NCBI GenBank assembly: GCA_016887505.1
Contig: CP069393.1
Coordinates: forward strand, 2,317,001-2,381,000
DNA from: Clostridia bacterium
GTDB taxonomy: Bacteria > Bacillota > TC1 > UBA5767
Direction: 5' to 3'
DNA: 64,000 nt
Shown here: piece after piece, positions 27,763 through 44,499 of the stretch
How the letters are laid out: each line of letters opens with the position of its first letter
How positions within the stretch are numbered: position 1 is the stretch's first letter
Translations under genes and position numbers: made by a program
The notes under the pieces: generated by a model
What the model was told of the DNA's origin: nothing
Databases searched by the model: none
Seen by the model: only the letters and a program-made list of their open reading frames with translations

Positions 27763-29082
27763 ATGGGACTATACAAAGAACTTCTAGATAAGACAGAAAA
27801 GATTTCTGTAGTTGGACTAGGCTATGTAGGTATGCCGCTTGCAGTTGCATTTGCTAATAAAGTGGATGTAATCGGATTTGATTTGAATAAAAAGAAAATT
27901 GATTTATATATGGCTGGGATTGATCCAACAAATGAAGTTGGAAATGAGAAAATTAAGAATTCTAGTGTTGAATTTACGGCGGACGAAAGAAAACTTAAGG
28001 AAGCAAAATTCCATATTATCGCTGTGCCTACTCCCATTAATTCAGATAAAACGCCGGATCTTACACCGGTGGAAAAAGCCAGTAAAATTATTGGACGTAA
28101 TTTGACGAAAGGCTCGATCGTAGTGTATGAATCGACGGTTTATCCTGGTGTAACGGAAGACGTATGTATACCCATATTGGAAGAAGAGTCAGGGCTTAAA
28201 TGTGGAATAGATTTTAAGATTGGCTATTCACCCGAGCGAATTAATCCTGGAGATAAAGTACATACCCTCGAAACAATAAAAAAGATCGTTTCAGGCATAG
28301 ATGAAGAAAGTTTAGAAGAAATAGCAAAGGTATATGAATTGGTTATCGAAGCCGGCGTACATAAAGCCAGCTCCATTAAAGTAGCTGAAGCGGCCAAAGT
28401 TGTAGAAAATAGTCAAAGAGATATAAACATTGCTTTTATGAATGAACTTGCCATGGTGTTTGATAGAATGGGAATTGACACAAAAGAAGTTGTTGAAGCT
28501 ATGAATACAAAATGGAATGCATTGGGCTTTACCCCTGGCCTTGTTGGTGGCCATTGTATAGGCGTAGACCCATATTACTTTGTTTATGAGGCTGAAAAAC
28601 TAGGCTACCACAGTCAAATAATTCTATCTGGTAGAAAAATAAACGATGGTATGGGTAAATTCGTTGCAGATGCAATCATCAAGAAGCTAATTTTGGCAAA
28701 CAAAGTTGTAAGGCAAGCAAAAGTGGTAATTCTAGGGATAACCTTTAAAGAAAATACACCAGACACGAGAAATTCTAAAGTTATAGATATCGTTGATAGT
28801 TTAAGAGAATATGGAATAGAACCAATTATAGTTGATCCAGTAGCGGATGCAGATGAAGCTAAAAATGAATACGGTATCAACATAGTCGATTTGATGGAAA
28901 TTGATAATGCAGACTGTTTAGTACTAGCGGTAGCCCATGACATCTTTAAAAAAATGAGATTATGTGACCTAGATGCTTTGTATGGGGATATTGAAAACAG
29001 CGACAAGGTATTAATCGATGTTAAGAGTACTTTAGATAAAAAAGAGATGGAAGAAAAAGGATATAGCTATTGGCGATTGTAA
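27763..29082 (+). CDS. Nucleotide-sugar dehydrogenase, VipA/TviB/WbpO-like
   Basis: About 439 residues. An NAD-dependent UDP-sugar 6-dehydrogenase. VVGLGYVGMPLAVAFA (near residues 17-32) binds NAD, ESTVYPGVTED and SPERINPGDK are substrate-site segments, and the catalytic Cys is in GLVGGHCIGVDPYYF. The sequence is closer to the UDP-N-acetylhexosamine dehydrogenases (VipA/WbpO) than to the UDP-glucose enzyme at 18534, so it probably makes an N-acetylhexosaminuronate. ATG 27763 is better spaced from GGAGA than ATG 27757. It begins the second part of the split polysaccharide locus. Confidence 0.9.
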   Translation: MGLYKELLDKTEKISVVGLGYVGMPLAVAFANKVDVIGFDLNKKKIDLYMAGIDPTNEVGNEKIKNSSVEFTADERKLKEAKFHIIAVPTPINSDKTPDLTPVEKASKIIGRNLTKGSIVVYESTVYPGVTEDVCIPILEEESGLKCGIDFKIGYSPERINPGDKVHTLETIKKIVSGIDEESLEEIAKVYELVIEAGVHKASSIKVAEAAKVVENSQRDINIAFMNELAMVFDRMGIDTKEVVEAMNTKWNALGFTPGLVGGHCIGVDPYYFVYEAEKLGYHSQIILSGRKINDGMGKFVADAIIKKLILANKVVRQAKVVILGITFKENTPDTRNSKVIDIVDSLREYGIEPIIVDPVADADEAKNEYGINIVDLMEIDNADCLVLAVAHDIFKKMRLCDLDALYGDIENSDKVLIDVKSTLDKKEMEEKGYSYWRL

Positions 29083-29100
29083 TAAAAGAAAGAGGCAGGC

Positions 29101-30216
29101 ATGAAAATTCTCCATATTAATTCATATTATAATGGTAGTATATTTTATAAGAATTTATATGATCAACAAGAAAAAAATGGACTAGATATAAGTGTTTTTG
29201 TTCCTGTTGCGCATCCTTTTGAAAGTAGTGACGATTTCGGAAGGTATACAAGGGTAAGTGCAAATCATTCAAAGCGTGACAGGCTATTCTTTCATTTAAA
29301 GCATAATAAAATTTATAAAGATATTACTAAAAAATATGATATTGAAAAATACTCCATAATACATGCACATTCGCTGTTCTCCAATGGGTATATTGCCATG
29401 AAACTCAAACAGAATTTTGGTGTACCGTATATCGTTGCCGTTAGAAATACAGACGTTAATGTTTTCTTTAATCGTATGCTTCACTTGAGAAAAATGGGAA
29501 TAAACATATTAACAGAAGCAGAGAAGATAATTTTTCTGTCTAAACCGTATCGAGATCTGGTTATAGAAAAATATGTACCCAATAATCTAAAACAAGAAAT
29601 ATATAAGAAAGTATCCGTTATACCAAATGGAATAGATGACTTCTGGTTTCAGGAAAGCGGTATAAAAAAAACGGTTGTAGATAAAAATGACTTAAAACTT
29701 CTTTATGTTGGCACAATTGATAAAAATAAGAATATCGAAACTACCTTGAAGGCAATAGAGATTTTACAACAAAAGGATTATAAGATTGCATTTACGGTAG
29801 TTGGAAAAATAAAAGATGAAAACATTTATAATCTAATAAAGAACATACCATATGTGCATTACATTACCCCTAAACCAAAGGAAAAACTCATAGAAATATA
29901 TAGAAGTAATGATATATTTGTAATGCCATCCATTACAGAGACATTTGGTTTGGTTTACGCTGAAGCAATGAGTCAAGGATTGCCTGTAATATACAGTAGA
30001 GGACAGGGGTTTGATCAACAATTTAGTGAGGGACTGGTAGGGTATCCTGTGAATTGTTATGATGCGGAAGAAATAGCGGAAAAAATAGAGAAAATTATTT
30101 ATCATTACGAATCCATTAGAAATGCCTGCTTGGAAAAATATACTGAATTCAATTGGGAAAATATTACAAAAAAATATTTGCGATTGTACGACGAGACTAT
30201 ACATAAAAATTCATAA
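29101..30216 (+). CDS. Glycosyltransferase, GT4
   Basis: A 371-residue GT-B transferase. The N-terminus MKILHINSYYNGSIFYKNLY and VAVRNTDVNVFF acceptor-side segment are followed by LLYVGTIDKNKNIETTLKAI and FVMPSITETFGLVYAEAMSQGLPVIYS, which carries the conserved E-x7-E donor motif. It starts 18 bases after the dehydrogenase behind GAAAGAGG, so the two are in one operon. Sugar specificity is unknown. Confidence 0.88.
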   Translation: MKILHINSYYNGSIFYKNLYDQQEKNGLDISVFVPVAHPFESSDDFGRYTRVSANHSKRDRLFFHLKHNKIYKDITKKYDIEKYSIIHAHSLFSNGYIAMKLKQNFGVPYIVAVRNTDVNVFFNRMLHLRKMGINILTEAEKIIFLSKPYRDLVIEKYVPNNLKQEIYKKVSVIPNGIDDFWFQESGIKKTVVDKNDLKLLYVGTIDKNKNIETTLKAIEILQQKDYKIAFTVVGKIKDENIYNLIKNIPYVHYITPKPKEKLIEIYRSNDIFVMPSITETFGLVYAEAMSQGLPVIYSRGQGFDQQFSEGLVGYPVNCYDAEEIAEKIEKIIYHYESIRNACLEKYTEFNWENITKKYLRLYDETIHKNS

Positions 30217-30532
30217 GATTTATATAGGAATTCTTTCATGCTATTGACTTATTACTGGATTTTATAGAGGCCAATCTATTGGAAAATATGGATACATATA
30301 TTTACTATTTAGATTAATAATAAATATATACCTTACTTCGAGCTACTTAGGTGTTTGGGGATTATTCTTTTCGTTATTCCACTAGGGTTTTCCTTGCAGG
30401 GATAGATAACAAGGAAGAGAACAGTAGTTACTAGCAATACGGGTATGCTGATATGATAGCTGTGTTTATTTCGGCAAGCGTTAGACAGATAAAAACACTT
30501 CTATACCGATAAGATATAGTAGGAGGCGAGCT
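30217..30532. other. Intergenic region
   Basis: No gene and no strong terminator. The only structure I see is an imperfect CCTTG/CAAGG pair near 30390-30414. A promoter for the following glycosyltransferase is expected here but none stands out. Confidence 0.35.
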
Positions 30533-31468
30533 ATGCATTTTTCCATAATAACTCCAGCTTATAACGCAGAAAAATTTATTGTTCGAGGTATTGAAAGTGT
30601 GTTAAATCAAACCTTTGATGACTTTGAACTTATTGTTGTTGATGATGGTTCCAATGACCAGACATTAGAACGTTTAAAAACCATAAACGATGAACGACTT
30701 GTGGTCATTTCTCAAAGCAATAAAGGGGTTTCGGTTGCTAGAAACACAGGTATCAGTCATGCACGTGGAGAGTTTATTTGTTTTTTAGATGCGGATGATG
30801 AATACCGGCCCAATCATTTGGAACACTTGGCTGGGTTGATAACGAAAAATCCTTCAAGAAATTTTTTTGCAACCAGGTTCTGCGTTAGCTTGCGAACAAA
30901 TAGTAATGGTATTGTCATGCCCCATACTACAGGGGAGGTTACCTATTATGAGGATGCGGTCAGGTGGACGCTAAAAGATAATAAAAAGATATGGACAGGT
31001 TGCGTTTGTATAAGGCGTAAAATGTTTGAGAAATACGGTGTGTTTGAGCCGGGTGTTAAATTGGGCGAAGATATTGATATGTGGAGAAGGGTTTATGCGC
31101 ATACTGGAGTTGTATACAGCGATATGGTTACCGTTCAGCGTAACCGAGATGGTAGCGAAGCGACAAAAGATTATACACGAAAATACGAGGTTGACCCTTT
31201 AAATCGTATGCCGATGTTTTTGAGGGATGATACGATTTCAGACAACATAAAGGAAAGCTTAAAAACGAAATATGAATTTACGAAGCTTCAGGTTGTTCGG
31301 TCTTACTTAGTGGATGGTAAAAAGAAAAAAGCTAGGCAAAAAATGGGCGAAGTGGATATCAGTAGAATTCCTAGGAAAAGATTAATGATTACCTATTTTT
31401 GCTTTTGTATTCCATCCAGGACAATTCGATGGTATATAAATAGGAAAAATAGAGGAATATATGAATAG
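30533..31468 (+). CDS. Glycosyltransferase, GT2
   Basis: A 311-residue GT-A family-2 transferase. The hallmark N-terminus FSIITPAYNAEKFIVRGIESVLNQ with VVDDGSNDQT and the FLDADDE metal-binding motif near residues 82-88 are present, as is LGEDIDMWRRV (the ED catalytic pair). ATG 30533 has TAGGAGG upstream. It stands alone, with gaps on both sides. It may extend or decorate the surface glycan. Confidence 0.88.
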   Translation: MHFSIITPAYNAEKFIVRGIESVLNQTFDDFELIVVDDGSNDQTLERLKTINDERLVVISQSNKGVSVARNTGISHARGEFICFLDADDEYRPNHLEHLAGLITKNPSRNFFATRFCVSLRTNSNGIVMPHTTGEVTYYEDAVRWTLKDNKKIWTGCVCIRRKMFEKYGVFEPGVKLGEDIDMWRRVYAHTGVVYSDMVTVQRNRDGSEATKDYTRKYEVDPLNRMPMFLRDDTISDNIKESLKTKYEFTKLQVVRSYLVDGKKKKARQKMGEVDISRIPRKRLMITYFCFCIPSRTIRWYINRKNRGIYE

Positions 31469-31670
31469 GTGTTTTATGTCAGAATTAGAGTTAAGTCTAT
31501 TTTGAGTGTAAATTCCTTGGATTCGGATACTGTTTGCTAGTAGATACCCATCTCGAAGTACTTATAACCAGGCTAACGTTTTTCATTGTGTTCTATGAAC
31601 AAAGTTCAGATGAGACGGACGATGGAAGAACATTTGAGAAGCTTCGGATAACACTCTTATGACGGCAGGC

Positions 31671-31708
31671 CGTCCCCATTCCCTTTCGCAGGAAAGTAGA
31701 TGGGGACG
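31671..31708 (+). terminator. Strong hairpin, weak or no U-tract
   Basis: CGTCCCCAT pairs with ATGGGGACG, and inside it CTTTC pairs with GAAAG. It is followed by CTACCTCTTT rather than a T-run. It could end the glycosyltransferase transcript or be a leader structure of the ligase-like gene. Confidence 0.5.
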
Positions 31709-31764
31709 CTACCTCTTTGGCCGATTTACGTGTATATTAGACAGGTATTCTTAGTTTGCATCAT

Positions 31765-31782
31765 CGTCCCACCTAGTGGGAT
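31765..31782 (+). promoter_or_regulatory. Conserved leader hairpin before O-antigen-ligase-like gene, copy 1
   Basis: CGTCCCACCTAGTGGGAT contains a TCCCAC/GTGGGA stem with a CTA loop, 20 bases before the ATG and just upstream of the GGGAGG ribosome site. The same 18-mer with one change is found at the same place before the paralogue at 45611. Confidence 0.55.
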
Positions 31783-31802
31783 ACCTAGCGGGAGGAAGAA
31801 AC

Positions 31803-33071
31803 ATGAACGGGCAATCGGCTAAACTACGCTTAGAATGGATTTTGGTTGCGGCACTCACCATCCTGCCGTGTATCAACTACGCGGCGCAATATAGTAATTT
31901 GTTTCATTCAACCAGAACATTTGGTCTAAACATTGCAACAGTTTTTATTATGATTGTCGTTTTTCAGCAACGCCGGAATATAGGCGACTTGATTCAGTTG
32001 GATCGTATAAATATTCTGTTAGCAGTTTATTTTGGACTCTTGCTGGTATCGCTGTTTTTTACTGAAAATGTGCTTATTGCTATTGTTGGTAAGATATTAC
32101 GTGACGAAGGCCTCATCGCTATCCTTATGTACCTTCTGCTATTTCTCGTAGCCAGAAATATAGACAAGCCTGATGGGAAAATCTATAAGGCTCTGCTTAT
32201 CATAGCCACCATCTTTGCCTTTTATGGAATATTCCAATACGTTGGGATAGAGTTTTTTCGAGAAGGAACAATGGCCAGAACCAGAAGCGAATCCATCTTC
32301 GAGAATCCAAATTTTTACGGATCCTACCTCGTCTTAATGCTACCCCTTGCCATAGACCTATATCTACGGAAAAAAAGCAGATGGGGGTTAGTGGTGTACG
32401 CAATCCTGCTGTTTACCCTGCTTGCGACCATGACCAGGGGAAGCTGGATTGGTGGTTGTTTAGGTTTGGTATTCTATGGCCTACTTTGGATAAAAAAGAG
32501 GGGCGGACTTAAAGTAGACCTAAAACGATACCTCTGCATCGTGTTAGTGAGTCTTCTGGTCATGGGTGGTTTCAATGCCCTTTCTGGAGGACGCTTCCAA
32601 GAACGCTTCCAATCCATCAATGAGGAAAGCATGAAAGTTCTGGCTCCAGAAGGCGTCGAAACTAAGGATGTACCGGCGAGAGCCTTCATCTGGAAAGGCG
32701 TAATACAACTAATTAAAGAAAGACCACTAACTGGTTACGGCATAGAAAATCTAGCACCTGCATTTAGTAAAAAATTTGATGAAGAGATTATGGAGTATTT
32801 CGGTGGCCCTGACATCATTGACCGAGCCCACAACGAATATCTCCACATAGCCGTAAGCAGCGGAATACCCTCTCTACTGGTCTACCTGCTTTTCATAGGC
32901 CATATTTTGTGGGTGGCTGGACATAGAATCAGGAAAAGGCCCGATTTACTGCCCTTCTTTGCTGCGGTAGTTGGCTATCTCATACAAGCTTCCTTCAACA
33001 TCAGCGTGGTAACCGTAGCCTATGTATTTTGGATTTTCCTGGGATTTATCAGCTCTTACAAACGAGTATAA
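31803..33071 (+). CDS. O-antigen-ligase/Wzy-like membrane protein, copy 1
   Basis: About 422 residues with roughly twelve transmembrane helices. A large central extracytoplasmic loop ends in RPLTGYGIENLAP and IIDRAHNEYLHIAVSSGIPSLLVYL, the conserved WaaL/Wzy_C signature (the His in RAHNEYL is diagnostic). Such proteins join or polymerise lipid-linked glycans, or glycosylate pilins or other surface proteins, outside the membrane. The start at 31803 is supported by GGGAGG; an upstream in-frame ATG at 31776 is not. A close paralogue lies at 45611-46915. It stands alone in its transcript. Confidence 0.87.
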   Translation: MNGQSAKLRLEWILVAALTILPCINYAAQYSNLFHSTRTFGLNIATVFIMIVVFQQRRNIGDLIQLDRINILLAVYFGLLLVSLFFTENVLIAIVGKILRDEGLIAILMYLLLFLVARNIDKPDGKIYKALLIIATIFAFYGIFQYVGIEFFREGTMARTRSESIFENPNFYGSYLVLMLPLAIDLYLRKKSRWGLVVYAILLFTLLATMTRGSWIGGCLGLVFYGLLWIKKRGGLKVDLKRYLCIVLVSLLVMGGFNALSGGRFQERFQSINEESMKVLAPEGVETKDVPARAFIWKGVIQLIKERPLTGYGIENLAPAFSKKFDEEIMEYFGGPDIIDRAHNEYLHIAVSSGIPSLLVYLLFIGHILWVAGHRIRKRPDLLPFFAAVVGYLIQASFNISVVTVAYVFWIFLGFISSYKRV

Positions 33072-33297: not shown

Positions 33298-33870
33298 GTG
33301 AAAAATAGCATTAATGTAGGTCGCAAATTGAAAATGTTGCGTTCACTTCACAAAATATCTCTAAAAAAACTGGCGGAAGAAACTGGCATGAGCTACTCCT
33401 ATTTATGGGGACTCGAAAATGATAAGCACTCCATTTCTGTAACCAACCTGCAACGGTTGTCGGAGTATTTTGATGTAGATCTAATCTACTTCTTGGGTAG
33501 CAGCCAAGACTCTAAATCCGTCTATATTGCTAAAGAAGACATAAATGAAGTTATTACGGAAGACAATGTATCGTTCAAATGCATCACTGACAATGTGAAA
33601 AGCCGCCTGCAAGTGACTTTAGTAGAACTTCCGAAAGATTCTCCTTCCGAAAGACATATCCATCATCATGATGAAGGAGAAGAATTTATAACAGTAATAT
33701 CTGGAGAGCTACATGTCATTTTAGGGGACGAGGAATATGAGTTGGGACCGGGGGATTCGGTATTGTTTGAATCCAAGACGGACCACGTAATCTTCACCAA
33801 AAGCAAAGCGGCCACTTTCTATCTGGTTGTGACGCCGCCATATGGGTCACATCTTTTGAATGGGATATAA
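33298..33870 (+). CDS. XRE-family transcriptional regulator with C-terminal cupin sensor
   Basis: A 190-residue protein. The N-terminal Cro/C1 helix-turn-helix (about 5-62, LKMLRSLHKISLKKLAEETGMSYSYLWGLEND) binds DNA; the cupin domain (about 85-185) has ERHIHHHDEGEEF metal ligands and GPGDSVLFESKTDHV, and presumably senses a small ligand. GTG 33298 has AAAGGAGA upstream. It is followed by a strong terminator and then the selenoprotein operon. Regulators of this type commonly control adjacent amine or amino-acid catabolic genes, so control of 34076-39441 is likely but inferred. Confidence 0.9.
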   Translation: MKNSINVGRKLKMLRSLHKISLKKLAEETGMSYSYLWGLENDKHSISVTNLQRLSEYFDVDLIYFLGSSQDSKSVYIAKEDINEVITEDNVSFKCITDNVKSRLQVTLVELPKDSPSERHIHHHDEGEEFITVISGELHVILGDEEYELGPGDSVLFESKTDHVIFTKSKAATFYLVVTPPYGSHLLNGI

Positions 33871-33882
33871 CATTGCATATTG

Positions 33883-33914
33883 GGCATGAGACGATTTTCG
33901 TCTCATGCCTTTTT
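33883..33914 (+). terminator. Rho-independent terminator
   Basis: GGCATGAGACG / CGTCTCATGCC with an ATTTT loop and TTTTT tail. It separates the regulator transcript from the reductase operon. Confidence 0.92.
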
Positions 33915-34075
33915 ATATGGGCCTAAGATAGGTCAATATTCAAGCGTGGATTTATTTGTTGTTGCACTGTGTTTGTTTTGGAAACGAGAAGCTATTGCAT
34001 GTCTGTGGGGGACTGTAATCTTCACGGTATTCTACTTGGAAAAGTAATAGTAAAAATTGTTTTTAGGAGGCACAT

Positions 34076-35410
34076 ATGAGTGAAAAAATAGCGCTCGCCT
34101 ACATAAACCAGTTCTATGCTGGTATAGGTGGCGAAGACAAGGCAGATGTGGGATTCATGGAATTCGACGGTGCCAAAGGACCAGGCATTGGCATGCAAGG
34201 CATGTGGAAAGACGAAATGTCCATTGCTGCCACAGTGGCTTGCGGTGACAACTTTGTCAACAACGAGGAAAAATTCCCCGAGGTTGCGGCCCAAATTGAT
34301 ACTGTAATTGAACGAGTAAAACCAGACGTATTCATATCCGGTCCGGCATTCAATGCTGGACGCTATGGGGTAGCCTGCGCTAGAGTGGCAGACTACGTTA
34401 GAACGAAGCATGGAATTCCTAGTGTAAGCGCCATGTACTACGAAAATCCTGCAGTGGCCATGTATGTAAAAGACAACTACATCGTAGCTACACCAGAAAC
34501 AGCAGCTGGTATGAGAAAAGTTTTACCGACTTTTGCAGCACTAGCCCTAAAGCTTGCCAAAAAAGAAAAGATAGGACCTGCACGTAAGGAAGGATATCTT
34601 CCAACCGGCCATCGCTACAACGAGTACCACGAAAAGACCGGTGCAGAGCGTGTGGTAGACATTCTCCTGAAGAAACTCAATGGTGAAGAATACGTGACGG
34701 AAGTACCACAACGCGCTTTCGAGATGATTCCTCCAAGCCCGGCAATTAAGGAATTGAATGAAACCAACATTGGTCTAATTACTTCCGGTGGCTTGGTTCC
34801 CAAGGGTAACCCGGACCATCTCAAACAAGCCTTCTCCGTAGACTATGGCTCTTACGATATCACCGGTATGGATAGCTTAGTAAAGGGTGAATTCATCTCC
34901 ATTCATGGCGGTTTCGATACGACGGTAGTAGACGATGACCCCAACCGAGTTGTGGCCTTGGATGCCATGCGTAGCTTGGAAAAAGAAGGAGTCTTCAACA
35001 AATTGCATAACCGATTCCTTTCTACGGCCGGTGTAGGCACCAATGTAGAAAGCGCCAAAGATATTGGCTCCAGGATGGCTAAGGAACTACTCGACAGTGG
35101 TGTCCAAGCGGCTATTCTAACTTCCACTTGAGGAACCTGTACTCGTTGCGTGTCAACGATTTCTAAGGAACTAGACAGGAAGAACATACCCAACGTAGTT
35201 ATTACGGCCTTTACTTCTATCGCGCAGAACGTAGGTGCAAACCGCATTGTATTTGGTGGCGACTTTACACACCCGGTGGGAGATCCTAGTTTACCCATCG
35301 AGCGTGAGAAAGCCTACCGCAAGCGGGTAATTGAAAAAGCCCTGTTTGCCCTGGGTGAAGATGTAGTCGGACCGACCATCTTCAACGTAGAAGAAAGTAA
35401 GGAGGCCTAG
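34076..35410 (+). CDS. Selenocysteine-containing GrdB-like reductase subunit (glycine/sarcosine/betaine reductase component B family)
   Basis: A 444-residue selenoprotein read through an in-frame UGA at 35129-35131 (Sec352). The text around it, ILTST-U-GTCTRC, is the U-x-x-C-x-x-C active site of GrdB/GrdF/GrdH. Downstream ANRIVFGGDFTHPVGDP also matches the family, so the two frames on either side of the UGA are one gene. In known enzymes this subunit reductively cleaves the C-N bond of glycine, sarcosine or betaine. ATG 34076 follows TTAGGAGG. The gene starts an operon with a GrdE-like subunit and two dehydrogenases. No grdA, grdC or grdD is seen, so the substrate is open and may be new. Confidence 0.9.
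35129..35159 (+). promoter_or_regulatory. UGA selenocysteine codon with SECIS-like hairpin
   Basis: UGA at 35129-35131 is followed after 11 bases by TCGTTG (35143-35148), loop CGTGT, and CAACGA (35154-35159), a perfect 6-bp hairpin. Bacterial SECIS elements lie just 3' of the UGA, with the loop roughly 15-35 bases away and G/U bases in a small loop; this one fits. It is evidence for SelB-dependent readthrough. Confidence 0.75.
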
Positions 35411-35411
35411 C

Positions 35412-36722
35412 ATGAAATTAACTAGAAGATATTACGATGTAACGGATGCAGCCTTCGGCGAGAAGAACAGTTTTAAAGACGGCAAGCTAGTTATAAACAA
35501 GGCTGCTCTACTGAGTGAACTAGAAGCATCCATGAAGAGCATCGAGTCCATCGACTTCGAACTCGTAAAACCTGGAGAAAATACCAGGATTATCCATGTA
35601 CTCGACGCCATTGCCCCCATGATCAAGGTTGAGGGACAAGGAAAACAGTATTCCGGATTTTTCGGACGTCCGAATACCTGTGGTGATGGCATAACCAATA
35701 TGTTGCGAGGCTTTGCCGTTATCGAAAGTGCGCCCCTGCCTTGGGACGACAGCAGCGCAAGCTCAGGCCTTTTGTATCCCCGGGATGCCATTATGGATAT
35801 GCAGGGACCCATTGCCGGATTTTCACCCTTCAGCGAGACTGTCAATCTAGTAATCAAGTATGAGCTCACCGATGGAAAGTCTTCCGCGGAATACGATGCA
35901 GATATCCGTTTGTGCGGACTTAAAGTGGCAGAAATTCTAGCCACTTTAACCTTAGGACTGGAACCGGTAGAAGAAGAGCTGTTCAGCATAGATGAAGTCA
36001 ATGAAGAACTGCCAGGTGTAGTACTGGTATGGCAATGCCAAAACCAGGGCGTTTATTCCAACACCTATCTCTATGGCAAGAGTATAGACAATCTAGTGCC
36101 CACGCTCCTGCATCCCAACGAAATGCTAGACGGATGTGTAGTCAGTGGAAACTATGTATGGCCAGCCTTCAAGGTACCGACCTATCTGCACGTTAATCAT
36201 CCTATTGTTTTGGAGCTATATAGGCAACACGGCAAGACCATCAATTTCAAGGGAGTTATTTTTGCCAGAAGCCACCAGCCGACCAACTGGGACAAGGAAC
36301 GTTGTGCCAACTTCAATGTTAAGATTGCGCACTACCTAGGTGCCAAAGGTTTGGTTATGGCTTGGGAAGGTGGCGGCAACGCAGCAGTGGATGGTATGCT
36401 AACCATTCAGGCTGCAGAAAAATCCGGCATCAAGGCCTCAACAATCACCTTCGAATTTGGTGGTGAAGACGGCACAGAAGGTATTTTATTAGTAGACGAC
36501 GTGCCAGAAGCAGACGCTGTTATCAGTGGCGGAAGCATTGAGAAGACCTACACACTGCCTAAGGTAGACCGGGTAGTTGGCGGTGACACACTTAGATTAA
36601 ACAAAGAGTCGGGCGGATTCTTCCCTCCGGCAGAGGATGAGATTACATTTGATACGACGACACAGCTCTATTGCTCAGGTAACCAAGCGGCACATAGCAA
36701 ACTGTTCGCGGAATCCTACTAG
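35412..36722 (+). CDS. GrdE-like reductase component B subunit with altered processing site
   Basis: A 436-residue partner of the selenoprotein. The family opening (GEKNSFKDGKLVINKAALL), KVEGQGKQYSGFFG, the DGCVVSGN segment near 240-247, and VNHPIVLELYRQHGKTINFKGVI follow known GrdE/GrdG/GrdI proteins. Those are made as proproteins cut at an Asn-Cys bond to leave a pyruvoyl group. Here Asn247 is followed by Tyr248, so the standard cysteine is absent; Cys242 lies nearby but not in an Asn-Cys pair. Starts two bases after the upstream stop behind AAGGAGG. If unprocessed, its chemistry must differ. Confidence 0.87.
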   Translation: MKLTRRYYDVTDAAFGEKNSFKDGKLVINKAALLSELEASMKSIESIDFELVKPGENTRIIHVLDAIAPMIKVEGQGKQYSGFFGRPNTCGDGITNMLRGFAVIESAPLPWDDSSASSGLLYPRDAIMDMQGPIAGFSPFSETVNLVIKYELTDGKSSAEYDADIRLCGLKVAEILATLTLGLEPVEEELFSIDEVNEELPGVVLVWQCQNQGVYSNTYLYGKSIDNLVPTLLHPNEMLDGCVVSGNYVWPAFKVPTYLHVNHPIVLELYRQHGKTINFKGVIFARSHQPTNWDKERCANFNVKIAHYLGAKGLVMAWEGGGNAAVDGMLTIQAAEKSGIKASTITFEFGGEDGTEGILLVDDVPEADAVISGGSIEKTYTLPKVDRVVGGDTLRLNKESGGFFPPAEDEITFDTTTQLYCSGNQAAHSKLFAESY

Positions 36723-36733
36723 GGGGTAATTAT

Positions 36734-38230
36734 ATGGATCCATATCAATATATTAAAAAAGAACCGTACAAGATGTATATCGACGGCCAATGGGTCGCCT
36801 CAGAAAGTAAAGAAACCTTTGATATTATTAACCCAGCGGTGAACGAGGTATTTGCAACAGCCTATAAGGGCTCCGAAAAAGATGCCCAAAAGGCCATTCT
36901 CGCAGCCAGGAAGGCCTACGATGAAGGACCTTGGGCTGGTATGACCCATCATGAACGTAGCGAACTGCTGTTCAAGGTTAGAGACTTGCTGGCCAAGAGA
37001 CAAGAAGAGTTTGCCTGCATAGAAACACTAGATTGTGGCAAACTCTATCCCAGCGTACTCTACTATGAAATCCAACAGGCCCTGGATGGATTTGCTTACA
37101 GTGCCGGAAACGCCAGACATCTAGAAGGCAAGGTGGTACCGGTAGACGGCGGTGGCAATAACTTCAACTACGTCACTTGGGAACCCTGCGGGGTAGTCGG
37201 CGAGATTCTCCCCTGGAATGGTCCCTTGATGATGGGAGCCCAGAAGATTTCAGCCATTTTGGCGGCCGGCAATACGGTCGTAGTGAAGCCGAGCTCATGG
37301 GCATCCCTATCCATGTTGGTCATTGCGGAAGTATTCCATGAAGCAGGATTTCCACCGGGCGTATTCAATGTGATTACCGGTTCCGGTCAGGTCGTGGGAG
37401 ATGCACTGGTTAAGAGCCCACTAGTGGACATGGTTTCCATGACAGGCGGTACAGAGACGGGAGAACAGATTATCCGTAGCTCTGCAGATACCATCAAGAA
37501 GATTGCTCTGGAATTGGGTGGCAAAAGCCCGCACATCATCTTCGACGACGTAGACCTTGATGATGCAGCCAAATGGGCTGTGTTCGGATTCACCTTGAAC
37601 TCAGGCCAGGTCTGCGTATCCGGCACCAGGGTCATCGTGCATGAAAACATCTATGAGGACTTGCTGGCACGCATGAAAACTGTTTGTGAGAACTTTGTAC
37701 CAGGCAACGGTTTCGACTATGAGAAGGGTGTAAACTTTTCTTCCCTGATTTCCAAGGAACATGCAGAGACGGTCAGAGGATTCATTGAGTCTGGAATTGA
37801 AGATAAGGCAAGACTAGTATGTGGCGGAACACACTTTGAAGGCTTAGAAGGCCAAGACAACAATTTTGTACCAGCAACCATCTTTGCCGATGTGACGCCA
37901 GACATGAAGATCTTCCAAGAAGAAATTTTTGGACCAGTAGGTTGCGTAACCAAATTCTCCACCGAGGAAGAGGCTGTGAAACTGGCCAATATGACCAAAT
38001 TCGGACTAGCAGGTGGTGTATTCACCAATAGCATCGCCAGAGCCCATAGGGTTGCTGGAAAAATCAAGGCAGGTCAGGTATACGTAAACAGCTACTTCAG
38101 TAAGGGAATGATGGAATCTCCGGGTACCGGTTGGAAACAAAGTGGTGTTGGTGTAGCTGGCATCCATAAGTATATGCATTCAAGAACGGTATTCGTATCC
38201 CTGGAAGATCATCCCCAGGCCCCGCTATAG
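36734..38230 (+). CDS. Aldehyde dehydrogenase, betaine-aldehyde-dehydrogenase-like
   Basis: A 498-residue NAD(P)-dependent aldehyde dehydrogenase. PWNGPLMMGAQKISAIL and KPSSWAS form the nucleotide site; ELGGKSPH holds the general base Glu and GQVCVSGTR the catalytic Cys (about residue 296). Full length and intact. It starts 11 bases after the GrdE-like gene, behind AGGGGG, so it is in the same operon. It may oxidise an aldehyde arising from the reductase substrate or act with the following alcohol dehydrogenase on an alcohol-aldehyde-acid series. The specific substrate is not visible. Confidence 0.9.
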   Translation: MDPYQYIKKEPYKMYIDGQWVASESKETFDIINPAVNEVFATAYKGSEKDAQKAILAARKAYDEGPWAGMTHHERSELLFKVRDLLAKRQEEFACIETLDCGKLYPSVLYYEIQQALDGFAYSAGNARHLEGKVVPVDGGGNNFNYVTWEPCGVVGEILPWNGPLMMGAQKISAILAAGNTVVVKPSSWASLSMLVIAEVFHEAGFPPGVFNVITGSGQVVGDALVKSPLVDMVSMTGGTETGEQIIRSSADTIKKIALELGGKSPHIIFDDVDLDDAAKWAVFGFTLNSGQVCVSGTRVIVHENIYEDLLARMKTVCENFVPGNGFDYEKGVNFSSLISKEHAETVRGFIESGIEDKARLVCGGTHFEGLEGQDNNFVPATIFADVTPDMKIFQEEIFGPVGCVTKFSTEEEAVKLANMTKFGLAGGVFTNSIARAHRVAGKIKAGQVYVNSYFSKGMMESPGTGWKQSGVGVAGIHKYMHSRTVFVSLEDHPQAPL

Positions 38231-38271
38231 AAAACTTCTTAAAATGTAAAGAATAGAAAGGACCAATTGTT

Positions 38272-39441
38272 ATGGAACGAAACTATGCAGCGTTGGTAAT
38301 GAGCAAGTTTGTCGTAGGCAGAGGTTCTTTGGATTATCTAGGAAGTTTTAAAAATAAGAGGGTGTCGGTGATTCATGGTGGTCCCAACATTTTGACAGAT
38401 CTTTTGAGATCAAGGATTGAATCCTTGATCTCAAAAAACAGTGGGACATGCATGTTTACCAAACCGGTACTCAGGGAACCATTTTTTAAGGATATTCTGA
38501 GTATTGAAAAAGAAATCCAAGACTACCAACCCGACTTAATCGTAGCCTTGGGTGGTGGAGCCGTCATGGATACGGCCAAGGTTGTCCAGATGTTATATGA
38601 AAATCCGGGCATTAGCCAAGAAGAGCTGGTGCGGCCCTACCAAATTCCCGATTTGGGCAAGAAGGCGATACTTCTTGCAATACCTACAACCAGTGGAACA
38701 GGCTCAGAAACGACCTCGGCGGCAGTATTCACGGACGATGAAACTAAGGAAAAAAGATTGATGCTAGGCAATGGTCTCATTCCCCAGTATGCAATTTTGG
38801 ATGCAGATTTTACGGATTCACTTCCTGCCTCCATTGCAGCCTATACTGGTATTGATGCCTTGACCCATGCTTTAGAAGCAGCAGTCTGTACCATCGCAAA
38901 CCCCATGGTCAAAACCATGGCCATCAGTGCAGCGGTAGATCTTTTCGAGAACCTCACAAATTCAGTATGCAAGGGTATTGCCCCAGAGCTGAAGGCAAAA
39001 GCCAGGGAGAAGTGCCACATTGCTGCTAGTATGGCCGGTGTAGCCATTACAAACTCCTGTACGGGATTGGCCCATGGCTTGGACCAGCCGGGCCCATATT
39101 TTTCCTTGCCTCACGGTCAAACTTGTGGTGTTCTCTTGCCTTATACGATGGCCTTCACAGGAGTAGATCCTTCGTATGTCACTATTGCTAGACGGTTGGG
39201 GCTGCCGGGAAGCAGCGATGAGGAGCTTTGCCTATCTTTGGTAAGCCATATAAGGAATTTAACAACAGATTTGGGAATTCCCAAGAGCTTTAAGGAGATG
39301 GAAATATCAGAACAAGAGTATATGGACCAGTTGGAACACTTTGCTAATTTGGCAGCTCCTGCAATGGCCACTAGGCTAGCTCCAAGAATTCCGAATCATC
39401 AAGAAACCAAGAAAATCCTAGAAATGGCATATTATGCCTAA
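38272..39441 (+). CDS. Iron-containing alcohol dehydrogenase
   Basis: A 389-residue group III alcohol dehydrogenase. ALGGGAVMDTAKVVQML (about residues 92-108) binds NAD(P); TTSGTGSETTSAAVF, GIDALTHALEA and GLAHGLDQPGPYFSLPHGQTCG give the metal ligands (Asp/His/His/His). ATG 38272 has AAAGGA upstream and follows the aldehyde dehydrogenase by 41 bases; a terminator follows, so it ends the selenoprotein operon. Its presence with the dehydrogenase suggests redox disposal of, or entry through, an alcohol/aldehyde intermediate. Confidence 0.9.
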   Translation: MERNYAALVMSKFVVGRGSLDYLGSFKNKRVSVIHGGPNILTDLLRSRIESLISKNSGTCMFTKPVLREPFFKDILSIEKEIQDYQPDLIVALGGGAVMDTAKVVQMLYENPGISQEELVRPYQIPDLGKKAILLAIPTTSGTGSETTSAAVFTDDETKEKRLMLGNGLIPQYAILDADFTDSLPASIAAYTGIDALTHALEAAVCTIANPMVKTMAISAAVDLFENLTNSVCKGIAPELKAKAREKCHIAASMAGVAITNSCTGLAHGLDQPGPYFSLPHGQTCGVLLPYTMAFTGVDPSYVTIARRLGLPGSSDEELCLSLVSHIRNLTTDLGIPKSFKEMEISEQEYMDQLEHFANLAAPAMATRLAPRIPNHQETKKILEMAYYA

Positions 39442-39789
39442 TCGGCGTATGTTTGTATAATGGATTGAAAAACATAAGAGACAGTGTGTAGGCAAAGGTC
39501 TACATGCTGTTTTTTGTTTTTGTTATAGAATAATGAGATTAAATCGAAAGAGCCGGTATTTTCATAAGGCTTGCTCATTCATTACATCAGGTGTTCGTAT
39601 TTATATAAAGAACTCACCAGGGTAGACGTAGGGACTTAAGCGGGACTCTTCGGTAATTCATTGCTGAGGAGTTCACGAAATTTCAAGAAATATTCCCCCG
39701 CGGTCTAGAAACATGGTAAAATTACCCTAGACAGACTACTGTGAAGAAGTAGATGATTCGTAGTATGTTCTATGCGGAGGAAAGAAAGC
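39442..39789. other. Intergenic region after the reductase operon
   Basis: A terminator (39482-39516) occupies the left end. The rest (39517-39789) is the leader of the SorC-family regulator and contains one weak inverted repeat (GGACTC / GAGTTC, near 39641-39674). No gene is seen. Confidence 0.5.
39482..39516 (+). terminator. Rho-independent terminator
   Basis: CAGTGTGTAG / CTACATGCTG, a 10-bp stem with two G-U pairs, 8-base loop and TTTTTTG tail. It ends the operon that starts at 34076. Confidence 0.85.
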
Positions 39790-40734
39790 ATGGTTGTTTC
39801 AACAGGAAAAAATGAATTTGTAAAGGTTGCCTATTATTATTACAAGGCAGGCATGACACAAAATGAGATTGCCAAAAAGATGTCCATGTCTAGGCAACGT
39901 GTGAACCGAATATTAAAAAAATGTCTGGAAACAGGCATTGTAAAGATAATGATTCAGGAGACTGAGGAACAAAACGTAGAATTTGAGGCAGAATTTGAGG
40001 CTTTGACTGGTTTAAAAGAGGTATTGATCATCAATACGGAAGCAGATGACGTAAATGATTCCCTTGGACCGGTGGCCGCATCCTATCTTGAGCGCATCAT
40101 AAGTGATGGAGATATCATCGGCTTTTCCAGAGGGCGTGCCCTCTCTTCCATGGTGAGCAGTCTAGAACCGACCAAAAAGAAGGATCTAACGGTCCTGCAA
40201 CTGGTTGGCGGACAGATTGAAGATGAATCCAACATCAATTCAGACAACATCGTACGGTATTCTTCGGAAATCTTAAATGCCAAATCCCAGTTTCTTTATG
40301 CGCCAATCATTGTGGAAAGCAGGAAGCTTAGAGATTCGATGCTCAATGAGACGGTCTTTGCACAGATGTACAACAGGATGAAGGACTGCACCGTTGCCGT
40401 AGTGGGTATCGGTGATATGTCCAAGGAGTCCGAGTTTGTAACCAGGAGCTTTTTGACAAAAGATGAGATTCAAACCCTGCAAAAAGAAAAGGCGGTAGGG
40501 GAGATTTGTACGCATTACTTTGATCAGGATGGCAAGATTATCAAGAGCGATATCAACGGCAGGGTCTTTGCGATTGACTGCAATAGCTTTAAGGAAATAC
40601 CCATTCGGATCGGTGTAAGTGGGGGAAATAAGAAGATTTCTGCCATTGTGGGTGCCATCAGAGGCGGTCTGATCAACGTGCTGGTAATTGACTACGATAC
40701 AGCACGAGCTGTGTTGGACAGACTAAAACCTTAA
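39790..40734 (+). CDS. SorC/DeoR-family (sugar-binding) transcriptional regulator
   Basis: About 314 residues. The N-terminal helix-turn-helix (about residues 12-50, YYYYKAGMTQNEIAKKMSMSRQRVNRILKKC) is followed by the sugar-phosphate-binding domain of SorC/CggR-type regulators: GLKEVLIINTE, GDIIGFSRGRAL, LQLVGGQ and the C-terminal GGNKKISAIVGAIRGGLINVLVIDYDTARAVL. ATG 39790 is selected because GGAGG lies nine bases upstream. It has its own terminator at 40755. A perfect inverted repeat (40894-40925) in front of the aldolase gene is its probable operator; the inducer may be a phosphorylated intermediate. Confidence 0.92.
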   Translation: MVVSTGKNEFVKVAYYYYKAGMTQNEIAKKMSMSRQRVNRILKKCLETGIVKIMIQETEEQNVEFEAEFEALTGLKEVLIINTEADDVNDSLGPVAASYLERIISDGDIIGFSRGRALSSMVSSLEPTKKKDLTVLQLVGGQIEDESNINSDNIVRYSSEILNAKSQFLYAPIIVESRKLRDSMLNETVFAQMYNRMKDCTVAVVGIGDMSKESEFVTRSFLTKDEIQTLQKEKAVGEICTHYFDQDGKIIKSDINGRVFAIDCNSFKEIPIRIGVSGGNKKISAIVGAIRGGLINVLVIDYDTARAVLDRLKP

Positions 40735-40754
40735 TACTGAAAACAGAACAATAT

Positions 40755-40786
40755 GAGCTGCTTATGTATAAGCAGCTCTTTTTTTA
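40755..40786 (+). terminator. Rho-independent terminator
   Basis: GAGCTGCTT / AAGCAGCTC with ATGTAT loop and a run of seven T. Ends the SorC-family regulator transcript. Confidence 0.93.
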
Positions 40787-40893
40787 TGCACTGAATCGAA
40801 TAGGAGGCCTTAACGGACTTTCTTTGTTGAGGGGCTGAAAATCAGTTTTATCTGTTTACAAAATTGGGGAAAGGTGGTATTATTTATCCAATA

Positions 40894-40925
40894 GTTACAT
40901 ATGTAATTGTAGTGAGCATATGTAA
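40894..40925 (+). promoter_or_regulatory. Inverted-repeat operator, probable SorC-regulator site
   Basis: GTTACATATG and CATATGTAAC are perfect inverted repeats separated by 12 bases, and each arm is itself part of a TTACATATGTAA-like palindrome. It lies 42-73 bases before the aldolase start and directly downstream of the SorC-family gene, the usual place for such an operator. Confidence 0.6.
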
Positions 40926-40966
40926 CATACACGAAGAAGTACAGAAAAGAAATGGAGATAAATACT

Positions 40967-41767
40967 ATGGCAAACAAAACACATCGTCTCAATCACATCT
41001 TTCGGGAAGACAGGAAGACCTTCATAATGGCAATGGACCATGGCAACATGTTCAACGTTCTTCCTGCTATGAAGTATCCTGGCAAAATTGTGAGTGAAGT
41101 GGCTCGTGCCGGCGCGGATGCCTTTTTGTCAACCGTTGGGATGGCGGATAAATTCGCCGACGAGTTTCACGGAAAGGGAATCATCTTAAGACTCGATGGT
41201 TCTTGCTCCTATCTAGGGTCAAAGAGTAAACCGCTGCAAACTGTCGTGAAGGTTGAAGACGCAGTAAGACTGGGTGCGGATGCCGTCATCAGCATGGGAT
41301 TCCCGGGCTCCAAATGGGAAGACCAAATCTTGGCAGATCTTTCGAGAAATATTTTGGATGCCAACCAATGGGGTATGCCCGTATTGGCAGAAATGTTGCC
41401 TCGTGGTTTTGAAGGTGGAGAGGATTCTAGAACACCAGAAAACATCACCTTCGCTTGTCGCATGGGTGCCGAAATGGGTGCTGACTTCATCAAGACGGAA
41501 TACACTGGTTCACCGGATACATTCCACGAACTGTGTGAAAGCGTATACGCACCGGTGGTAATTTTGGGTGGTGGCAAGAAGGTATCTGAGAAACAACTTC
41601 TCACCGATATCAAGGAAGCCATGAGCGCCGGCGGCGCTGGCGTTGCAATGGGTAGAAATATCTGGGGACATGAAGATCCCGCCAGATATGCAGGTGCAAT
41701 TGCAAAACTGATTCACGAGGATTGCAGCGTTGAAGTAGCTCTAAAAGAGCTGAACAAAAAGTTCTAG
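40967..41767 (+). CDS. DhnA/LsrF-type class I aldolase, copy 1
   Basis: A 266-residue TIM-barrel aldolase of the DhnA/DeoC-LacD superfamily. FIMAMDHG near residues 19-26 and the Schiff-base lysine K176 in GADFIKTEYTG identify the class; VVILGGGK and GGAGVAMGRNIW form the phosphate site. It probably cleaves a phosphorylated ketose or keto-polyol. ATG 40967 is preferred to the upstream ATG 40952. It heads an operon with a zinc alcohol dehydrogenase, and a paralogue pair lies at 62420-64000. LsrF-like thiolase activity is an alternative. Confidence 0.88.
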   Translation: MANKTHRLNHIFREDRKTFIMAMDHGNMFNVLPAMKYPGKIVSEVARAGADAFLSTVGMADKFADEFHGKGIILRLDGSCSYLGSKSKPLQTVVKVEDAVRLGADAVISMGFPGSKWEDQILADLSRNILDANQWGMPVLAEMLPRGFEGGEDSRTPENITFACRMGAEMGADFIKTEYTGSPDTFHELCESVYAPVVILGGGKKVSEKQLLTDIKEAMSAGGAGVAMGRNIWGHEDPARYAGAIAKLIHEDCSVEVALKELNKKF

Positions 41768-41781
41768 GAGGCGAGGTGATT

Positions 41782-42813
41782 ATGGAAAATTACAAGATTG
41801 CTGTTAACACAGGTGTTCACGAAATAAGCATAGAAGAAAGAGAAATCAAGGAGCCAATCGATCATCAGGTACTAGTTAAAGTACACAGTTGTGCAATTTG
41901 TACCTTGGAACAAAGGATGTATAGCGGTGTTATCAAACGCTATCCCTTTGCCGGTGGACATGAAGCGGCCGGAACGGTTGTAGCCGTCGGTGACAAGGTC
42001 AAGAATTTCAAGATAGGCGACAAGGTAGCCCCAAGGATGCTGACTAGCTGTGGAGAATGCTATTATTGCCGAAACGGTCATGAAAACAAATGCGTTTCCG
42101 CCTTTATTGCCAACATCCACGAAGGACTTGGCGGACCGGGCGGATTCTCCGAATACATGATGCTTGAAGCAAAGTCACTCTACAAATTAGCAGATGACTT
42201 GGATCTAAAATATGCTGCACTCACGGAGCCCTTGGCCTGTTGCATTCACAGCATTAACAATGCAAATATTCAACTGGGAGAAGACGTTGTGGTTGTTGGT
42301 AACGGAATCATGGGTTCCTTCCACATTCAGCTTGCTAAACTCAAGGGTGCACGCGTGATTGCCTGCGAAGTGGATGAAGGTCGGATGGCTATGGCCAAGA
42401 GAATTGGTGCAGATATCGTGATTGACTCTTCGAAAGTTGACCCTGTTGACAAGGTAAAAGAACTGACGGAAGGTAGAGGAGCCAATGTCGTATTTTGTAC
42501 GGCAGCATTTACCGCACTTGCCTCTCAAAGTATCGATATGGCAGGAAACCATGGACGCGTAGTCATGTATTCCTCCTTCCCCAATGGAAGCCCAATCGAA
42601 CTGGATGTAAACCGCTCACATTCTGCTGAAACCATCATCACTGGTGCGGTGAACTCCAATAAGAGCGAATTTCTGGCAGCCACGAGATTGCTTTCGAACA
42701 AGTTGATTGATGTATCTCCCTTTATATCGGAGGTCGTGCCTTTCGAAAGAATAGAGTATGCTTTTGAACGTGCCATCGATCCTAGCACCTATCGTATTTT
42801 GGTTGAAATGTAG
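41782..42813 (+). CDS. Zinc-dependent alcohol dehydrogenase (MDR family), copy 1
   Basis: A 343-residue medium-chain dehydrogenase. Catalytic zinc ligands are C40 in CAICTLEQR and H60-E61 in GGHEAAG; structural zinc ligands are C90, C93, C96 and C104. VVVVGNGIMGSFHIQLAK is the NAD-binding loop. In place of the usual C-G-T-D there is C-T-x-E-Q, a feature shared with copy 2 at 63206. ATG 41782 has GAGGTGATT before it. It likely oxidises a polyol or sugar hydroxyl before or after the aldol cleavage performed by the upstream enzyme. Confidence 0.9.
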   Translation: MENYKIAVNTGVHEISIEEREIKEPIDHQVLVKVHSCAICTLEQRMYSGVIKRYPFAGGHEAAGTVVAVGDKVKNFKIGDKVAPRMLTSCGECYYCRNGHENKCVSAFIANIHEGLGGPGGFSEYMMLEAKSLYKLADDLDLKYAALTEPLACCIHSINNANIQLGEDVVVVGNGIMGSFHIQLAKLKGARVIACEVDEGRMAMAKRIGADIVIDSSKVDPVDKVKELTEGRGANVVFCTAAFTALASQSIDMAGNHGRVVMYSSFPNGSPIELDVNRSHSAETIITGAVNSNKSEFLAATRLLSNKLIDVSPFISEVVPFERIEYAFERAIDPSTYRILVEM

Positions 42814-42970
42814 CACCCAATATGACATACTTAGTTTACCATTGAGCAATTCTAGCTGTATCCCCTTATTCCCCCACAGAATAACCATACAGTTAGATGC
42901 TCGTTACGGATATTGCAAACAACACCCTCACATCATGGAACCAACTTTATGTCTCACATAAGAATTGTAT

Positions 42971-42999
42971 TTGACAACTTGTACTGAATTATTTTTAAT
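42971..42999 (+). promoter_or_regulatory. Sigma-A promoter of the APC permease
   Basis: TTGACA (42971-42976), 17-base spacer, TTTAAT (42994-42999). The perfect palindrome CAAGCGCTTG (43001-43010) lies at the expected start of transcription and looks like a repressor operator. Confidence 0.7.
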
Positions 43000-43046
43000 C
43001 CAAGCGCTTGAATAACAAAAAACTAAGGGACGAGGTAAGAACGGTT

Positions 43047-44408
43047 ATGAAAGATACCCAGCAAGGAAAACTTGGTTTAGTTGGCAGTACATCAATACTA
43101 ATTGGTGGTATGATTGGAAGCGCAATTTTTTCGCTTTCAGGTGTTACCATTCTCAATGCAGGACCAGCAGCAATCTTATCCTGGATCATCGCCGCAATAA
43201 TTCTATATGCTTATGGTCTTCAAACTACAGAACTTTCTACGATCTACCCACATTCCGGTGGTATTTTCGTCTTCCCGGCGAAATCTCTCGGAAAAACGGA
43301 AAAGCAAGGTAAGCTATGGGGCTGGGTATCAGCCTGGGCATACCTGTTCGGTTGTGTGGCTGGTGCTGCTTTCTCGGCTATCTACGTAAGTATATATCTT
43401 GGCGTTAGCTTCCCAGCCTTAAATGGATACCAAGTACCCATCGCCATCGTGGCAGTACTCTTCTGCGGATGGTTAAACGTAATTAAAGTTGATTCCATGG
43501 GCAAGATTACTACTGGACTCACAGTAGGTTTAGCAGCTACCATGCTGATATTCATCTTCAGTGCCTTTGGCAGTGGTTCATGGGACTCAAGCATGATGAC
43601 CCCCTTCTTCACGCAAGGCGTGGAAGGCACCTTCGGTTTCATGGGCGCAATTCCAGTCGCTATGGTTGCCTTCGGCTCCATCGTTGCCATATCCTTCATG
43701 GTTGGAGAAATCAAAGACCCCAACAAAACAGTTCCGAAAGCAGTTTCTATCGCTATGTTTGTAGTGGTAGTCCTATACGTACTCATTCTTGTAGCAACTT
43801 TGGGACTAGTAGATTCTGGATTTTTGCAAGCCAATCCAGGTATGGCCTTTATTCCCTTGTATGCAGCGGCCTTTACAAAATTGTCGCACATTGCATGGCT
43901 AGTACCCTTGATTTCTGTTTCTGCAGTTCTGGCACTGCTCACCACCATTTTGGTTGTGATGGGTCTTTCAGCACAAGCTTTGAAAGCATCTGCAGAAAGT
44001 GGCATCCTGCCGAAATGGTTTGCTAAGACGAGCGAAAAGTCCAATATGCCAGTTAATGCCCAGATCATTGTAACCCTGGTAGTAGGTATTGTTTCCTCCT
44101 TCCCCGACTTCACAAACCTGATTGTGAATCTAGGTGCCTTGTGTAATGCAGTTGTCGTTGCCATTGTTTGCTTGACTGTTATTGCAGCACGTAAGAAGAA
44201 TCCAAGACGGGAAGGAACCTTCCGAGCACCAGGTGGCGATGCACTTCCGATTATCACTTTCATCGTAATAATTGCAGCCTACATTCCTGGAATCATTTCC
44301 GGTGGTGGACAGTTGTGGGCCTGGACCGCAGGCTACTATCTAATCGGTCTGGCCATCTATTTCATCGGCACCAAAAATGATGTGGATGAAGTTAGAAAAA
44401 TCGGTTAA
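43047..44408 (+). CDS. APC-superfamily amino acid/amine permease
   Basis: About 453 residues and twelve predicted transmembrane helices. The first helix carries the conserved GSTSILIGGMIGSAIFSLSG, and GAIPVAMVAFGSIVAISFMVGEIKDPNKTVPKAV is the APC signature region around helix 6. It imports an amino acid or related amine by cation symport or exchange. ATG 43047 is chosen over TTG 43008 because the promoter's predicted start site lies at about 43006 and GAGG precedes the ATG. It has its own promoter, so it can be expressed apart from the aldolase pair. It may supply the substrate of the Grd-like reductase. Confidence 0.88.
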   Translation: MKDTQQGKLGLVGSTSILIGGMIGSAIFSLSGVTILNAGPAAILSWIIAAIILYAYGLQTTELSTIYPHSGGIFVFPAKSLGKTEKQGKLWGWVSAWAYLFGCVAGAAFSAIYVSIYLGVSFPALNGYQVPIAIVAVLFCGWLNVIKVDSMGKITTGLTVGLAATMLIFIFSAFGSGSWDSSMMTPFFTQGVEGTFGFMGAIPVAMVAFGSIVAISFMVGEIKDPNKTVPKAVSIAMFVVVVLYVLILVATLGLVDSGFLQANPGMAFIPLYAAAFTKLSHIAWLVPLISVSAVLALLTTILVVMGLSAQALKASAESGILPKWFAKTSEKSNMPVNAQIIVTLVVGIVSSFPDFTNLIVNLGALCNAVVVAIVCLTVIAARKKNPRREGTFRAPGGDALPIITFIVIIAAYIPGIISGGGQLWAWTAGYYLIGLAIYFIGTKNDVDEVRKIG

Positions 44409-44430
44409 AGACCTTTTCAGAGATATGTAC

Positions 44431-44458: not shown

Positions 44459-44499
44459 AGAACATCCTACCCTCACGTGAAAAGGAGTGAAATATCGAT

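Follow-up and report, generated by a model that had tools for sequence, protein, structure and literature searches.

The window analysed here, a 64,000 nucleotide stretch of contig CP069393.1 from a Clostridia bacterium (assembly GCA_016887505.1), includes genes for a selenoprotein related to the glycine reductase subunit GrdB and for a GrdE-like subunit. The initial annotation placed this pair in an operon at 33298-39441, and the coordinates and order that it gave for five genes, encoding an XRE-cupin regulator, the GrdB-like and GrdE-like subunits, an aldehyde dehydrogenase (ALDH) and an iron-containing alcohol dehydrogenase (Fe-ADH), were confirmed. The conserved unit is about twice as long, reaching 45423. 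We consider it likely that 33298-45423 is a 'fin'-type cluster for the fermentation of the flavin side chain, by which riboflavin would be converted to lumichrome, dihydroxyacetone phosphate (DHAP) and acetyl-phosphate. For the window, in which genes for a RibF, an aldolase and a zinc-dependent dehydrogenase belong to one run, a flavin pathway is the probable assignment.

Anaerobic conversion of riboflavin to lumichrome by Clostridium scindens was described in a bioRxiv preprint of February 2026 (PMC12934955), together with a riboflavin-induced gene set, the flavin-induced neighbourhood or fin, that encodes a RibF homologue, a class I aldolase, an alcohol dehydrogenase, an ALDH and two glycine/betaine/sarcosine reductase homologues. 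By gene type, the window cluster includes this entire set. The preprint proposes no reaction sequence and mentions neither selenium nor GrdA (its text was searched for selenium and grd words), and its survey was limited to Lachnospiraceae. The pathway scheme presented below was worked out before the literature search, and hence before the preprint was found.

When neighbourhoods were compared by gene clustering over 29 fetched loci, extended to 33, the reductase pair (FinH-type for the GrdB-like and FinI-type for the GrdE-like subunit) was found together with RibF, a DhnA-type aldolase and a zinc-dependent dehydrogenase in 14 loci. These are the window and 13 others, namely L078, L080 (Lutispora saccharofermentans), L083 (Alkaliphilus peptidifermentans), L084, L085, L088, L089, L090, L097 (Treponema putidum), L195, L196, L197 and L199, and their hosts range from Alkaliphilus, Lutispora and Lachnospiraceae to Treponema putidum. 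As a typical 3 Mb genome contains one or two ribF genes, linkage within 10 kb would be expected by chance at approximately 1% per locus. Every locus with enough flanking DNA includes a gene for either ALDH or aldehyde:ferredoxin oxidoreductase (AOR). AOR replaces ALDH in three of them (L067 12723-14588, L083 11643-13601 and L098 15112-16923), and an aldehyde-oxidising enzyme of one family or the other is therefore retained next to the pair. The XRE-cupin regulator gene is among the neighbours of the pair in 11 loci.

The window RibF lies at the TIGR00083 cut-off (184.5 versus 184.35 bits) and is 32% identical to the housekeeping RibF encoded elsewhere in the genome. In a motif alignment, the kinase motifs GRTVGMPTANL and TNIGxRPSVD are intact in twelve fin RibFs, but the flavin adenine dinucleotide (FAD) synthetase motifs of the housekeeping copies, TFxxHP and SSTxIR, have been lost or altered. 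Because the kinase domain is intact and the FAD-synthetase motifs are lost, we infer that the fin RibF is a kinase that makes flavin mononucleotide (FMN) and no longer FAD. No FMN riboswitch was detected at the gathering threshold in the window or in six related loci.

Both subunits contain the expected glycine reductase component B domains (PF07355 and PF09338), and selenocysteine (Sec) is present in a UxxC motif. However, the GrdB-like protein missed every curated cut-off: it scored 439.7 of the 602.2 bits required for GrdB (TIGR01917), 481.8 of 800 for GrdF (NF040794) and 412.5 of 775 for GrdH (NF040795). The pair was also below the cut-offs of the sarcosine reductase model NF040793 (267.1 of 780 bits), the fluoroacetate reductase FarE (NF053623, 137.8 of 675) and the D-proline reductase PrdB (TIGR04483, 91.6 of 300), with 44 bits for PrdA. 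A GrdB-family tree was built from 78 rows with IQ-TREE (quick search, with SH-aLRT as the sole support measure). One group (support 97) unites 25 of the 26 members of the branch, among them the window; just outside it, within the next group (support 98), are L067 and the pair of L193 and L199, while glycine/sarcosine-type GrdB/F (support 95) and betaine-type GrdH (support 100) are found elsewhere. The pair is thus outside GrdB, GrdF and GrdH, as the initial annotation had suspected, on a branch of its own with a shared neighbourhood. Relatives of the GrdE-like subunit are 62-83% identical to it, followed by a thin set at 44-56% and a remainder at 42% or less; those of the Lachnospiraceae members L089, L195 and L196 are 68-70% identical. 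Neither subunit matched a solved structure by sequence. Two genomes of the same genus (G002:C54 and G001:C15) contain broken or fragmentary GrdB-like stretches, with matches of 73-105 residues, which suggests decayed or split extra component-B copies.

A single TGA is the only interruption of the GrdB-like frame, and it is retained in all 30 of the branch members. The Rfam model SECIS_4, for the selenocysteine insertion sequence (SECIS), matches weakly just 3' of this codon in the window (E 0.009) and exceeds the Rfam threshold at the same position in six relatives; simple RNA folding of the window sequence was uninformative (z-score 0.20). The genome encodes SelB, through which alone its Sec machinery was checked, and a TGA-containing grdA. 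On the strength of the 30/30 conservation, the SECIS_4 matches in relatives, selB and the TGA-containing grdA, the TGA is identified as a Sec codon. A chance TGA or a sequencing error was ruled out by the conservation.

The initial annotation noted that no grdA, grdC or grdD gene was near, and none was found in the window. A reading in which GrdA is absent does not hold for the genome: a search for grd genes located a complete grdX-grdE-grdA-grdB-grdC-grdD operon at about 1187.5-1194 kb of the genome's only contig (2.56 Mb), which puts it 1.16 Mb away from the pair (grdC and grdD assigned by position and similarity to annotated C subunits). Indeed, grdA is present in 23 of the 26 genomes that carry the pair, and the remaining three are metagenome-assembled genomes, which supports the suggestion, also made initially, that GrdA is borrowed from elsewhere. 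For comparison, a GrdB-family protein was found at E <= 1e-150 in 105 of 399 genomes of the phylum. Separation of a component-B pair from grdA is ordinary, as many bacteria feed several substrate-specific B complexes into one reductase system (PMC10838667). In some relatives the missing genes adjoin the pair. L082 has the order FinH-FinI-TrxB-GrdA-GrdC-GrdD (GrdA 256, C-beta 800.6 and C-alpha 536.4 bits, all over cut-off), L091 has FinI-TrxB-GrdA-GrdC-GrdD, L098 has FinH-FinI-GrdA-GrdC-GrdD, and in L067 grdA is the gene next to the pair. The GrdE-like subunits of L082 and L091 are 73-76% identical to that of the window, and the adjoining set in these close relatives is an arrangement that the initial annotation had regarded as counting against its reading of the operon. 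In L080, a C-terminal grdA fragment of 60 residues (11559-11738) lies between FinI and Fe-ADH and is perhaps the remnant of an adjoining grdA.

General enzyme chemistry provides a candidate step for each gene. The second RibF would convert riboflavin to FMN (N10-CH2-(CHOH)3-CH2-O-P), and the zinc-dependent dehydrogenase would oxidise the 4'-hydroxyl of its ribityl phosphate to a ketone (4'-keto-FMN). A ketone at C4' would put the C2' hydroxyl in the beta position, and the DhnA aldolase could split the C2'-C3' bond to release DHAP and 10-formylmethylflavin (N10-CH2-CHO). ALDH would oxidise this aldehyde to 10-carboxymethylflavin (N10-CH2-COO-, an N-substituted glycine), and Fe-ADH would interconvert formylmethylflavin with hydroxyethylflavin. 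The Sec of the GrdB-like protein, with the GrdE-like subunit, would attack the alpha carbon of N10-CH2-COO-; the flavin nitrogen would leave and tautomerise to give lumichrome, and the carboxymethyl-selenoether would pass to GrdA and GrdC/D, all supplied in trans, and yield acetyl-phosphate. Hydroxyethylflavin would be the reduced aldolase product, and lumichrome what is left after loss of the two-carbon stub; a comparison of F. fissicatena, which makes the former, with C. scindens, which makes the latter, therefore places the reductase pair at stub removal. Such a scheme would account for hydroxyethylflavin formation by F. fissicatena, whose neighbourhood lacks the reductase pair, and for the finding that ribose and ribitol do not enhance growth (PMC12934955).

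The GrdE-like subunit differs from that of the genome's own glycine reductase at the site where the pyruvoyl group is formed, which in C. difficile GrdE is Cys-derived and near residue 242 (PMC9908766). Tyr248 of the window protein aligns with Cys244 of the genome's GrdE. The glycine- and sarcosine-type alpha subunits surveyed have Cys at this site, betaine-type GrdI have Phe or Tyr, and members of the branch have Tyr, or Leu in two cases. The rare residues are Tyr in one betaine-type GrdI, and Leu in one branch member and in L095 (L206 10772-12148, L199 9374-10765). Judging from these sequences, the site appears to drift freely after Cys is lost. Loss of Cys would fit a substrate with a nitrogen that is unable to enter into a Schiff base, such as betaine and carboxymethylflavin. 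We regard this as supportive and not decisive because it is debated what the pyruvoyl group does; a passage of PMC9908766 cites Andreesen 2004 for the suggestion that it protects GrdB and does not bind substrate.

Besides that unsettled role, several observations weigh against a flavin pathway. No RibF gene is near the pair in branch members L066, L068, L069, L087 and L100, and in L067, L079 and L081 it is accompanied by mannose-type phosphotransferase systems (PTS) or ATP-binding cassette (ABC) sugar transporters and a class I or II aldolase. The APC permease of the window belongs to a family that is not known to transport flavins. An ALDH orthologue is present in F. fissicatena, which has no reductase pair and still yields hydroxyethylflavin (PMC12934955). 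As RibF-free and PTS/ABC-linked members exist, the reductase may take other, or more than one, X-CH2-COO- substrates. An unlikely alternative, though the strongest of those considered, is therefore that the substrate of the pair is some other N-, O- or S-carboxymethyl compound, made by oxidation of a small amino-alcohol or a polyol conjugate, and that the neighbouring RibF module serves a different purpose. It draws on RibF-free members, in which the pair is accompanied either by just ALDH, Fe-ADH, an APC permease and a cupin regulator or by PTS/ABC modules and a class II aldolase, and on the closest ALDH model, betaine-aldehyde dehydrogenase (468.6 bits, under its cut-off). However, RibF, the aldolase and the zinc-dependent dehydrogenase accompany the pair in 14 loci, the same gene types are riboflavin-induced in C. 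scindens (PMC12934955), and RibF-type and RibF-free members are mixed together within the tree branch. The genomes of some RibF-free loci (G403, G413 and G414) have the fin aldolase, or the aldolase and RibF, on another contig. In L067, L079, L081 and the sister locus L071, PTS/ABC sugar import, a zinc-dependent dehydrogenase and a class I or II aldolase stand in place of RibF, and their reductases probably act on polyol conjugates other than flavin. An operon for the conversion of choline via betaine aldehyde to betaine, hinted at by the ALDH model, was considered and rejected, as the branch is distinct from GrdH and the pair is surrounded by genes for RibF and polyol-phosphate enzymes.

The preprint itself discusses non-enzymatic flavin damage and a role for FinB as an FADH2 pyrophosphorylase. 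That the cluster handles surplus or reduced flavin in this way, with lumichrome an overflow or damage product, seems to us improbable. The lack of growth enhancement by ribose, ribitol or lumichrome, and the possibility that the lumichrome formed is reduced (PMC12934955), would agree with it, but the failure of ribose and ribitol to help is also explained by DHAP and acetyl-phosphate as products. Moreover, RibFs of the fin clade have eroded FAD-synthetase motifs, and overflow alone would not need a DHAP aldolase, an ALDH or AOR and an acetyl-phosphate-forming reductase. We give hardly any weight to the further proposal of the initial annotation, direct product release by an enzyme that does not need GrdA. 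D-proline reductase provides a precedent, since PrdA and PrdB work without proteins A and C, and the window has no grdA/C/D. The similarity to PrdB and PrdA is weak, and the genomic grd operon, the frequency of grdA among genomes with the pair and the trxB-grdA-grdC-grdD genes behind it in relatives led us to reject this mechanism.

The one pathway from riboflavin to lumichrome that has been characterised is oxygen-dependent, and for anaerobes PMC12934955 names genes and no reactions. A flavin side-chain pathway would give each gene a step and provide a testable mechanism for this activity of gut bacteria, with the prediction that lumichrome formation in the gut depends on selenium and GrdA. 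Anti-inflammatory effects of lumichrome have been reported, as noted in PMC12934955, and passages of PMC12650265 report that flavin catabolites bind MR1. On balance, though with less assurance than for the window cluster, we favour the view that the branch represents a new selenium-dependent 'carboxymethylflavin reductase', and that anaerobes ferment the side chain of vitamin B2 to DHAP and acetyl-phosphate, releasing lumichrome. For other polyol conjugates, the same output module (ALDH or AOR, reductase and GrdA/C/D) would then be reused behind interchangeable inputs, namely RibF or import by a PTS or ABC system, and an aldolase of class I or II. If this is true, component-B enzymes would extend to an aromatic tertiary nitrogen, and the loss of the pyruvoyl cysteine would gain a hint of meaning.

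Table 1. Features of the fin-type cluster in the window
Feature	Position	Strand	Evidence
XRE-cupin transcriptional regulator, PuuR-like architecture	33298-33870	+	Pfam HTH_3 and Cupin_2
GrdB-like selenoprotein, FinH-type, Sec352	34076-35410	+	PF07355 448 bits; read-through TGA; own tree branch
Sec codon, in-frame TGA	35129-35131	+	Residue 352, context ILTST-U-GTCTRC
SECIS-like stem-loop CGTTG..CAACG	35132-35169	+	RF01990 26.9 bits, below gathering
GrdE-like subunit, FinI-type, Tyr248 at pyruvoyl-forming Cys site	35412-36722	+	PF09338 423 bits
ALDH, non-acylating	36734-38230	+	PF00171; ELGG at 260, GQVC at 291
Fe-ADH	38272-39441	+	PF00465/PF25137; neighbour in 8 loci
SorC-type regulator, sugar-phosphate-binding domain	39772-40734	+	PF04198 228 bits
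Class I DhnA-type aldolase	40952-41767	+	PF01791, class I FBP aldolase model; conserved GAD-x-x-K
Zinc-dependent dehydrogenase	41776-42813	+	PF08240/PF00107; best models IolM and Tdh
APC-family permease	43008-44408	+	PF13520; in 13/14 RibF-type loci
Second RibF, kinase domain intact, FAD-synthetase motifs eroded	44500-45423	+	TIGR00083, PF01687 118 bits

The cluster is flanked on both sides by genes of surface-polysaccharide type (27757-33071, judged from translations only, and 45611-46915), including those for a UDP-sugar dehydrogenase-like protein, glycosyltransferases and an O-antigen-ligase-like protein, and is placed as if it had been inserted between them. Further downstream, 58491-63196 is another polyol or aminosugar-like catabolic set, comprising a mannose-family PTS (IIA, IIB, IIC and IID), a creatininase-like protein and a second DhnA-type aldolase that is 46% identical to the fin aldolase. 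Genes for a polyamine-type ABC transporter and a xylulokinase-like kinase lie upstream of this set.

Among known systems, the closest in gene content is the fin of C. scindens, which has the same gene types in one neighbourhood; the window cluster is from another Clostridia lineage, and Fe-ADH and a cupin regulator are part of the same run. Aerobic riboflavin catabolism by RcaE in Microbacterium and Devosia has the same end product, lumichrome, but RcaE is an O2-dependent monooxygenase that releases ribose (PMC12934955), and no such gene type is found among the annotated genes of the window cluster. With GrdB-GrdE, GrdF-GrdG and GrdH-GrdI the window pair has in common the domains, Sec in U-GTCTRC, the two-gene arrangement and, probably, the shared use of GrdA/C/D. 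It differs from all three in its separate branch and its scores below their curated cut-offs, and its GrdE-like subunit resembles betaine-type GrdI only in having no Cys at the pyruvoyl site, with Tyr instead. FarB/FarE of Cloacibacillus is a GrdB/E pair adapted to a substrate that is not an amine, the product of which is thought to be passed to the shared proteins A and C. However, the window protein is far below the FarE cut-off, and the radical S-adenosylmethionine (radical-SAM) and major facilitator superfamily (MFS) antiporter genes of that system are not among the neighbours of the window pair.

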